A stretch of DNA of 53,803 nt from Bacteroidia bacterium (GTDB lineage Bacteria; Bacteroidota; Bacteroidia; UKL13-3), in contig JALONP010000019.1 of the NCBI GenBank assembly GCA_025454875.1, positions 1 through 53,803 on the forward strand, read 5' to 3'. Under the pieces are notes generated by a model. That model did not search any database and was not told the DNA's origin. It saw nothing but the letters and a program-made list of their open reading frames with translations. Below are positions 5,737 through 45,233 of the stretch, piece by piece (position 1 is the first letter of the stretch; every line of letters begins with the position of its first letter). Both the position numbers and the translations under genes were made by a program.

Positions 5737-6477
5737 ATGAAAACAACATTATTAAACATCGTAAACATTCCGGTTGATGACCCAATCGCATTTACCTTTT
5801 TTACAGGCTACATGGCCATGTTGGCTGCTTCAGTTTTCTTTTTTGTGGAGCGAGGAAGTGTAGACGGCAAATGGAAATTATCACTTTTGGTTTCGGCTTT
5901 AATCACTGGAATTGCAGCTGTGCATTACTACTACATGCGCGATTACTATTTAAGTACCGGTCAAACCCCAACAGCGCTTCGTTACATTGACTGGACACTT
6001 ACTGTTCCATTAATGTGTGTTGAGTTTTATCTACTCACAAAAGCTGCCGGTGCTAAAATTGATTTAATGTGGAAACTCATCATTGCTTCAGTATGGATGT
6101 TGGTTACTGGTTATATTGGAGAAGCGTTCACTGATGGTTCAACCAGCCATTCTTTCACTTGGGGTGCACTTTCAACCATCGGTTATGTGTATGTATTGTA
6201 TACAGCTTGGTTAGGTGAGGTTGCCAAATTAGCTGAAAAATCAGGCGATCCAGTTGTAATCAAAGGTATTCGTTCATTGGCATGGTTTGTATTGGTTGGC
6301 TGGGCTATTTACCCAATTGGCTACATGTGTATGCCTGGTGGCTGGTTAAATACAGGTTTAGGATGGAGCTCATCAAACATCGACCTCTTTTACAATATTG
6401 CCGATGCAATTAACAAAATTGGCTTTGGTTTGGTAGTGTATGGAATTGCCATTGGCAGCAAAGCAAAAGCAGCATAA
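5737..6477 (+). CDS. Light-driven proton-pumping rhodopsin (proteorhodopsin/xanthorhodopsin type)
   Basis: The protein is a 246-residue type-1 rhodopsin with seven membrane helices. Retinal binds Lys227 in helix G (ADAINKIGFG), with the counter-ion partner Asp223. Helix C has RYIDWTLTVPLMCVEF: Asp85 (proton acceptor), Thr89 and Glu96 (donor), the DTE pattern of outward proton pumps rather than the NDQ or NTQ patterns of Na+ or Cl- pumps. His63 matches the His that pairs with the acceptor in proteorhodopsins. Met93 occupies the spectral-tuning site, and non-Gln there predicts green absorption. Helix E reads FTWGALST, which puts Gly143 where bacteriorhodopsin has Trp138. This glycine opens the window used by antenna carotenoids in xanthorhodopsin. 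The downstream gene overlaps the stop by one base. No retinal or carotenoid synthesis genes lie in the window. Confidence 0.96.
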   Translation: MKTTLLNIVNIPVDDPIAFTFFTGYMAMLAASVFFFVERGSVDGKWKLSLLVSALITGIAAVHYYYMRDYYLSTGQTPTALRYIDWTLTVPLMCVEFYLLTKAAGAKIDLMWKLIIASVWMLVTGYIGEAFTDGSTSHSFTWGALSTIGYVYVLYTAWLGEVAKLAEKSGDPVVIKGIRSLAWFVLVGWAIYPIGYMCMPGGWLNTGLGWSSSNIDLFYNIADAINKIGFGLVVYGIAIGSKAKAA

Positions 6478-6920
6478 TGACAAACGCATCGGTGGTAACT
6501 GATGAAATGCGCAGCAAGCCGTTTTATCAATTAACAGAAGAAATGTTTCAATGCGTAAGCAAACACAACTTCGATAGACTTGCACAAATATGTGATGATG
6601 ATTTTGGAATAATTGACATCAACACTACTGGTGGATCAGAAATTATACGCGACCGAAAAGGTTGGGAAAACTGGTTCTCAGGTTTGTTTGTTAAACTATC
6701 CGAAATGAAAGCCGAAACCTGGTCGGAGATTACGCATTATGAAGCCGTAGAAACTGAAAACATGGGATATGGCGTAGTAGATTTTGACCAAATTTTTATT
6801 GCAGGTGACCAAAAATTGCGATTCAGTGTAATTGCAACCATCATCTGGAAAAAGGTAGATAATATTTGGAAAGAATCACGGTACCATAGTTCACTCATTA
6901 AAGTTGTACCTTTTGAATAG
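6477..6920 (+). CDS. NTF2/SnoaL-like protein translationally coupled to the rhodopsin
   Basis: The protein has 147 residues and no signal peptide or membrane span. The order is an N-terminal helix (PFYQLTEEMFQCVSKHNFDRL), a turn with an acidic patch (CDDDFGIIDI), helices around residues 58-75 (GWENWFSGLF), then four or five beta strands ending IIWKKVDNIWKESRYHSS. That is the cone-shaped NTF2/SnoaL/DUF4440 fold, whose pocket binds small hydrophobic ligands or catalyses simple reactions. The start ATG shares its A with the rhodopsin TAA (TAATG), so its translation should depend on the rhodopsin. A terminator follows 2 bases after the stop, making a two-gene unit. The ligand is unknown; retinal or a carotenoid is only a guess. 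Confidence 0.75.
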   Translation: MTNASVVTDEMRSKPFYQLTEEMFQCVSKHNFDRLAQICDDDFGIIDINTTGGSEIIRDRKGWENWFSGLFVKLSEMKAETWSEITHYEAVETENMGYGVVDFDQIFIAGDQKLRFSVIATIIWKKVDNIWKESRYHSSLIKVVPFE

Positions 6921-6922
6921 CT

Positions 6923-6952
6923 AAACGCCTCCAAACTTTGGAGGCGTTTTTT
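6923..6952 (+). terminator. Strong intrinsic terminator of the rhodopsin operon
   Basis: AAACGCCTCCAAA and TTTGGAGGCGTTT are perfect reverse complements separated by one C. In RNA they would form about 11 pairs with a small loop, and a U-run follows. The stem starts 3 bases after the stop codon. Confidence 0.9.
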
Positions 6953-7250: not shown

Positions 7251-7691
7251 ATGAAATACCTAATCTTGGCAATTGCTTTTAGCTCCACCCTATTGTTACA
7301 GAGCTTTAAATCTCCTAAATACACTGTTGAGCTAACCATATCTAATCTCCGTAATTTTGATGGTGAAATTGGGATTGGGATTTATCAGAATGATGATGGA
7401 TTCCAAAATGAACAATCATATATAAACAAGAAGTTTTCGAAAGCACAAACCAAAAATGGAAGGTTAACTGTGACTTTTACTATTGAAGCAGGCACTTATG
7501 GAATTGCATTGTTGGATGACGAAAACAAAAACAACAAAATGGACTACTCATTTATTGGTATTCCTAAAGAGGGCTTTGGGTTTTCCAACTATTACCATAC
7601 TGGACTTACAAAACCTCATTTTAATCAATTTAAGTTTGAGGTAAAGCCGAACACAAAAAATACCGTTGAAGTTAAGGTAAGGTATATTTAG
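7251..7691 (+). CDS. DUF2141 family secreted protein
   Basis: The protein has 146 residues with a signal peptide (about 1-19). The mature part matches the DUF2141 pattern: an N-terminal strand pair (VELTISNLRNFDGEIGIGIY), then GTYGIALLDDENKNNKMDY followed by IGIPKEGFGFSN, the conserved D-x-N-x-N-x-x-D loop and GxPxEGxxFSN signature. The family is common in Bacteroidota and has an Ig-like fold with no known role. The gene stands alone. Confidence 0.85.
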   Translation: MKYLILAIAFSSTLLLQSFKSPKYTVELTISNLRNFDGEIGIGIYQNDDGFQNEQSYINKKFSKAQTKNGRLTVTFTIEAGTYGIALLDDENKNNKMDYSFIGIPKEGFGFSNYYHTGLTKPHFNQFKFEVKPNTKNTVEVKVRYI

Positions 7692-44128: not shown

Positions 44129-44677
44129 ATGAAACACTCAAAGACGCTCTTAATGGCAATATGCCTTACAACTTTATTTTCGTTTGATATTCCGGATGGC
44201 TGGTTTGTTGCCGGAAGCAAACCCAAAAGTTACGAAATGGGCTTGGCCAAAGGCGAAGGAAAAGATGGGAAAAACTGCGCGACCATTCAATCAATTGAGC
44301 CTAAAATTAAGGGATTTGGAACCTTGATGCAAAATGCCAATCCTGCACAATATTTGGGTAAAAGGGTAAAACTTTCAGGTTGGGTTAAAACCAAAGATGT
44401 AAAAAAAGGAGCTGCATTGTGGTTTAGAGTTGATCATAAAGATGAAACAGGTAAAATAAACATGCTAGGTTTTGATAATATGTGGAACAGGTTAATTAAA
44501 GGAACTACAGAATGGACTAAATATGAGCTTGTATTAGATGTTCCTAAGGAAGCAGATAATTTGGCTTATGGAGCACTGTTATCAGGTACAGGTCAAATAT
44601 GGTTTGATGAAATAACGTTAACTGAAGTTGATTCAACTGTTCAATCTACGAATCGATTGGTTCGGTCAAAAAAATGA
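44129..44677 (+). CDS. Secreted beta-sandwich protein, first of a tandem pair
   Basis: The protein has 182 residues with a signal peptide (about 1-19). The mature part begins IPDGWFVAGSKPKSYEMGLA and carries GKNCATIQS, GFGTLMQ, YLGKRVKLSGWVKTKDV, FDNMWNR and GTGQIWFDEITL. This looks like the galactose-binding-like fold found as an extra domain in some AraC-type regulators, but here it is alone and exported. The next gene encodes a close paralogue, and both lie behind the sigma and membrane protein genes with short gaps. Confidence 0.65.
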   Translation: MKHSKTLLMAICLTTLFSFDIPDGWFVAGSKPKSYEMGLAKGEGKDGKNCATIQSIEPKIKGFGTLMQNANPAQYLGKRVKLSGWVKTKDVKKGAALWFRVDHKDETGKINMLGFDNMWNRLIKGTTEWTKYELVLDVPKEADNLAYGALLSGTGQIWFDEITLTEVDSTVQSTNRLVRSKK

Positions 44678-44681
44678 AAAA

Positions 44682-45233
44682 ATGAAAAAACTAATCTTAA
44701 TTACATTGGTAAGCGTGTTGGTATGCGCATTTGAAGTCCCTAAAGGTTGGATTATTGCCGGAAGCAAGCCTACTAGTTACAACATGGGAACAGCTGTTGG
44801 TGAAGGAAGAGATGGGAAAAACTGTGCAACCATTCAATCAAAAGAAAAAATCATTGAAGGATTTGGTACCTTGATGCAGGTAATGTCGGCTGAAAAATAT
44901 TTGGGTAAACGGGTGCGCATGACAGGTTATGTTAAAACACAAAATGTGCAAAATTGGTGTGGTTTATGGATGCGTTGCGATGGCGAAAATAAAAAACAAA
45001 TGCTCGCATTTGATAACATGGAAAACAGGCGTATTACGGGAAATACAGATTGGAAAAACTATTTTATTGTGCTTGATGTTCCTGAAGCAACTTCATCAAT
45101 AGCATTTGGGGTATTGCTTGGTGGAACTGGGAAAGTTTGGTTTGATGAAATTCAATTTGAAATTGTACCCGATTCGGTTCCCACTACAGGCCGAAAATTT
45201 GGTGGCCCACAAAATTTAAGTTTTGATGAGTAA
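44682..45233 (+). CDS. Secreted beta-sandwich protein, second of a tandem pair
   Basis: The protein has 183 residues from ATG 44682, which lies 4 bases after the previous stop. An earlier in-frame ATG overlaps the previous gene by 50 bases and is not used. It has a signal peptide (about 1-15) and aligns end to end with its neighbour: GWIIAGSKPTSYNMG, GKNCATIQS, GFGTLMQ, YLGKRVRMTGYVKTQNV, LAFDNMENR and GTGKVWFDEIQF. The pair arose by tandem duplication. The ligand and role are unknown. Confidence 0.65.
   Translation: MKKLILITLVSVLVCAFEVPKGWIIAGSKPTSYNMGTAVGEGRDGKNCATIQSKEKIIEGFGTLMQVMSAEKYLGKRVRMTGYVKTQNVQNWCGLWMRCDGENKKQMLAFDNMENRRITGNTDWKNYFIVLDVPEATSSIAFGVLLGGTGKVWFDEIQFEIVPDSVPTTGRKFGGPQNLSFDE

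Follow-up and report, generated by a model that had tools for sequence, protein, structure and literature searches.

A small NTF2-fold protein paired with proton-pumping rhodopsins in Bacteroidota, a candidate for retinal supply where Blh is missing

Introduction

The window considered here, i.e., the whole stretch of 53,803 nucleotides of Bacteroidia DNA that was analysed, carries a rhodopsin gene followed by the gene of a small protein, and the locus raises the question of what such a partner does for the pump. The β-carotene dioxygenase Blh makes retinal, and around relatives of the window's rhodopsin the adjoining slot is usually filled by blh and sometimes by the lycopene cyclase gene crtY, which blh may or may not follow. 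An earlier note on the same DNA had proposed that the partner hands a pigment, either retinal or a carotenoid, to the rhodopsin; our literature search turned up no publication in which a rhodopsin is paired with a SnoaL or NTF2 protein.

Results

The rhodopsin gene (positions 5737 to 6477, forward strand) encodes 246 aa that match Bac_rhodopsin (E 8e-43), with the proteorhodopsins 9jov and 9jou as closest solved structures (E 6e-75). Judged from its residues, with D85 (counter-ion), T89 and E96 (proton donor) forming the D-T-E motif, K227 as the retinal lysine and a leucine of the green type at position 92, the protein is a proteorhodopsin-type proton pump. The glycine for an antenna carotenoid that the earlier note had claimed is present as Gly143, a putative counterpart of Gly156 in XR and Gly153 in Kin4B8 that was matched by our own reading of helix E, the HMMER alignment to GPR being gapped there, and with it the sequence would qualify as that of a carotenoid-binding rhodopsin.

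The partner gene (6477 to 6920, forward strand; 147 aa), recognised as a rhodopsin-associated SnoaL_3/NTF2-fold protein from its ORF, Pfam match, family neighbourhoods and structure model, has one base in common with the rhodopsin stop (string TAATG). An intrinsic terminator (6923 to 6949, forward strand), with a stem of 12 bp, 6 of them G-C, and a T-tail, lies 3 bases past the partner stop. As the downstream neighbour begins only at 7251 and the upstream neighbour is on the opposite strand, rhodopsin and partner constitute a two-gene unit; the overlap, the strong terminator and the extent of exactly two genes are all as previously described. The arrangement is not a matter of chance, orthologues of the partner adjoining rhodopsins in other Bacteroidota orders. 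Elsewhere in the window (44129 to 45233) a tandem duplication was observed after a sigma-factor-like gene, the neighbouring genes encoding similar proteins (FDIPDGWFVAGSKPKSYEMG and FEVPKGWIIAGSKPTSYNMG).

The window's partner matches the Pfam family SnoaL_3 (PF13474) with 26.9 bits (gathering score 22) over positions 3-118 of the 121 of the profile, and the AlphaFold model (pLDDT 89.2, pTM 0.82) displays a complete NTF2 fold with the expected helices and strands, both in agreement with the standalone NTF2-fold protein that had been supposed. Scores against NTF2-fold chains (Z 11.6-13.9) would place the modelled protein in the NTF2-like superfamily. SnoaL_3 was matched by 15/15 family members scanned (E ≤ 1), and the fold is that of SnoaL_3 proteins; within these, the partners form a discrete subfamily tied to rhodopsins, with motifs of their own, CDDD(F/Y)GIxD...R..WE.WF and TI(I/V)WK...WxE(S/A)R(W/Y)HxS, and NCBIfam contains no model for them. 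In the alignment of 15 sequences 31 columns are invariant, including C39-D40-D41-D42, D47, R60, W63, E64, W66, Q105, T121, W124, K125, W131, E133, R135, H137 and S139. The best fold matches are BaiE bile-acid 7alpha-dehydratase, the CaMKII hub, scytalone dehydratase, LinA and ketosteroid isomerase, and designed proteins that bind vitamin D3 or cortisol are also found among the matches. BaiE, scytalone dehydratase and ketosteroid isomerase (Z 12-14) are enzymes acting on hydrophobic molecules, but their identity to the partner is ~11-16% and the dehydratase Asp/His pair was not recognised in it; D47 seems, by hand alignment, to match the base Asp38 of ketosteroid isomerase, which is a lead. The Rossmann protein KtrA/YuaA, retrieved by phmmer (E 1e-7), was not reproduced with the family profile and was taken as a chance match.

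Every copy of the partner found here belongs to Bacteroidota. A rhodopsin of the window kind is present in 36/64 genomes of the window's own family, and the partner gene was absent from all the other rhodopsin loci read in that family, including that of the nearest rhodopsin (G066, 85% identical). A scan of named genomes recovered relatives of the partner in a Cytophagales MAG (L027, 75%), a Flammeovirgaceae MAG (L028, 68%) and a Bernardetiaceae MAG (L029, 50%), and the class survey added another (L030, 66%); all four directly follow a rhodopsin, with the one-base overlap also in L028 and L030. The order of L027 (Cytophagales) contains the family in 14/390 genomes, each with E ≤ 5e-42 and with no weaker match down to 1e-5, so that the family is a discrete one. 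Thirteen of these 14 carriers fall within the 108/390 genomes having a rhodopsin of the window kind (p 3.5e-7), which, together with the recurrent adjacency, bears out the view of a protein dedicated to the rhodopsin. Only the window's genome and G209 had the gene among 395 class and 395 phylum genomes, the partner being therefore rare outside Cytophagales-like lineages, and no relative was detected in viral contigs (single-sequence and profile search) or plasmids.

The gene lies downstream of the rhodopsin on the same strand in the window, L027, L028, L029, L030, G889, G1024, G914, G919 and G786, with a terminator or terminator-like stem between the two in G786 and G889; it is upstream on the same strand in G807 and G834, convergent in G1116, and on a different contig in G931, G783 and G803. 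At least 7 supported changes of the partner trait were counted on the rhodopsin tree. The gene trees of partner and rhodopsin agree only partly (Mantel r 0.40; G931 and G914 share 76% identity in the partner and 52% in the rhodopsin), from which it follows that the partner moved and was re-paired with different rhodopsin lineages, and its landing by different rhodopsins indicates a working bond and not shared ancestry alone. One carrier, G849, had no rhodopsin detected at E ≤ 1e-30, a finding that counts against a role in retinal supply. The copy of G849 (L159, 7665-8123) is the most divergent (37%), keeps all the invariant residues and occurs in a genome with an RPE65-type oxygenase. In G783 and G803 (L158, L160) a gene for a MerR-type regulator, similar to the regulator-like genes that other genomes have near crtB, lies ~3 kb from the partner; the G803 partner is truncated, with an internal stop.

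The partner occupies the place that blh has beside other Bacteroidota rhodopsins, and among the loci read none held blh and partner together. Blh (PF15461) was present in 4 of the 17 carriers and in 45 of the 47 rhodopsin genomes that lack the partner, many of the genomes being MAGs in which some absences may be gaps; the figures became 4/15 vs. 74/76 once the set had been enlarged by genomes with blh adjoining the rhodopsin (91 rhodopsins, Fisher p 2e-9). Phylogenetically independent pairs on the rhodopsin tree gave ~6 opposite and 0.3 same (median p 0.03), so the exclusion is marginal after phylogenetic correction. An intact partner coexists with Blh in three genomes (G778, G807 and G209), which counts against a stand-in; in G786 Blh is present and the partner is frameshifted. 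The two frameshifts of G786 are ~60 bases apart (L063, rhodopsin-side gene at 1226-1411 and around), as from decay or an assembly error.

The cleanest single comparison is offered by two genomes of one family. G066, without partner, has a 669-aa CrtY (PF05834)-Blh (PF15461) fusion (L034, 1489-3498), and the window's genome (99.97% complete) has neither Blh nor an RPE65-type carotenoid oxygenase that could be found. The latter encodes in one region the phytoene synthase CrtB, two phytoene-desaturase-like proteins (CrtI), a CrtYcd-type lycopene cyclase and a CrtZ-like hydroxylase, and should therefore make β-carotene and zeaxanthin. The absence of the pairing in relatives with the same rhodopsin, named beforehand as a result that would speak against the association, is thus encountered in G066, but in a relative that has Blh. 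In G794, G836, G838 and G865 the frames around Blh have a length of 655-709 aa, which suggests a CrtY-Blh fusion there too.

G779 resembles the window's genome, with genes for a lycopene cyclase and CrtZ beside crtB/crtI and neither Blh nor an RPE65-type oxygenase. An RPE65-family protein, full length in four and a weak match in three, is encoded by seven of the carriers without Blh, where it might be another source of retinal and so counts against a stand-in; as sole explanation of the exclusion these oxygenases were discarded, six of the 17 carriers being without both enzymes (vs. 1/47 rhodopsin genomes without partner). A protein of ~730-790 aa with a weak RPE65 match (E 1e-9 to 1e-29) was noticed in G783, G834, G914, G794, G801 and others.

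Discussion

The near-exclusion with Blh, the shared slot and the lack of a known retinal enzyme in carriers that have the β-carotene pathway lead us to regard the partner as a stand-in for Blh that supplies the pump with retinal, as an enzyme or as a retinal carrier, and we consider the chances of this explanation to be about even. The distribution is that of a stand-in, and it favours retinal supply over antenna loading, nonetheless the two proteins differ: Blh has ~300 aa and resides in the membrane, while the partner is predicted to be soluble, has 147 aa and an NTF2 fold and shows no sequence kinship. Pfam scans of the window protein and of 15 members gave no PF15461 match, so the partner is not a Blh and could only work like one. 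Opsin and partner would be made from one mRNA, the NTF2 pocket would bind what we infer to be the ligand, either retinal itself or a carotenoid from which retinal is made, and the partner would either form retinal in the pocket or pass it to the new opsin.

That the partner itself forms retinal is a tentative proposal, to which the fully invariant charged residues (D40-42, D47, R60, E64, E133, R135 and H137) lean slightly; that it would add a new, third kind to the enzymes that form retinal, with no relation to Blh or to the carotenoid cleavage oxygenases (CCO), and would convert β-carotene or an apocarotenoid, is doubtful. We know of no retinal-forming protein with an NTF2 fold, and the partner sequence shows nothing like the iron site of Blh or of a CCO. 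The carrier half of the same explanation, by which partner-bearing bacteria would be retinal auxotrophs and the partner would catch exogenous retinal in the cytoplasm and load it into the opsin, appears rather unlikely. The exclusion of Blh fits it as well, added retinal is required by other rhodopsin bacteria that lack Blh (Rhodoluna lacicola, as cited in PMC7734400), and the matches to designed vitamin D3 and cortisol binders point in the same direction; however, the lycopene cyclase is kept in carriers, so that the precursor seems available, the many invariant charged residues suggest chemistry, and no uptake gene is found in the cassette.

Other roles have to be weighed against retinal supply. 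Following the carotenoid half of the earlier note's proposal, the partner would load the rhodopsin's carotenoid site with a xanthophyll such as zeaxanthin, an idea in agreement with Gly143, with the CrtZ of the window's genome, with the binding of zeaxanthin by proteorhodopsins such as KR1, in which the glycine at the carotenoid site was already known (PMC12308411), and with the existence of standalone NTF2 carotenoid carriers in cyanobacteria (PMC7512017). The partner has in common with the C-terminal domain of OCP and its standalone homologues CCP/CTDH (PF02136) the NTF2 superfamily and the idea of a soluble pigment carrier, but the supposed kinship failed to appear, none of the 15 members scanned matching PF02136 at E ≤ 1. 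The Tyr/Trp pair bonding the keto ring (Y201/W288 in OCP, Y28/W111 in CCP2; PMC7512017) was not recognised at the level of sequence in the partner, where W124 and W131 are invariant; OCP was not among the 50 matches listed in either fold search, which excludes nothing. The partner had also been expected to track with the glycine, and this correlation was abandoned, since the glycine is invariant in the 114 rhodopsins checked (15/15 with partner, 99/99 without). Delivery of an antenna carotenoid, which does not predict the exclusion of Blh either, is in our opinion quite improbable: of the pigment-supply role first put forward, retinal remains plausible and the carotenoid antenna is not supported.

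The CaMKII association (hub) domain (PF08332) is the sole PDB relative of the partner by family profile search (E 2e-4) and one of its top folds (Z ~13), and 11/15 members match it at E ≤ 1, the window's partner with 16.3 bits, below the gathering threshold of 22.1. Together with the translational coupling, this would suit a hub-like oligomer that helps the pump to be inserted, assembled or controlled. The partner has, nevertheless, no kinase, and the pocket arginines of CaMKII, which we take to be R453 and R469 in CAMK2A numbering, align in the family profile with I122 and S138, so that the site is not kept; the exclusion of Blh is not predicted, and a structural or regulatory partner appears improbable. 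The patchy distribution and the marginal exclusion once phylogeny is corrected could also fit a small enzyme of unrelated function that was transferred along with rhodopsins, in which case the exclusion of Blh would derive from lineage or habitat, but the repeated changes on the rhodopsin tree, the three gene orders and the re-pairing with different rhodopsins make such a hitchhiker very improbable.

Some rhodopsin bacteria are without known retinal genes, and Aurantimicrobium minutum makes retinal by an unknown route (PMC7734400). Even if only a carrier, the protein would serve bacterial proton-pumping rhodopsins as a dedicated partner, of which we found no description in the literature; as a supplier of retinal in place of Blh, the family is a concrete candidate for the missing retinal step in Blh-less rhodopsin bacteria of the Bacteroidota.
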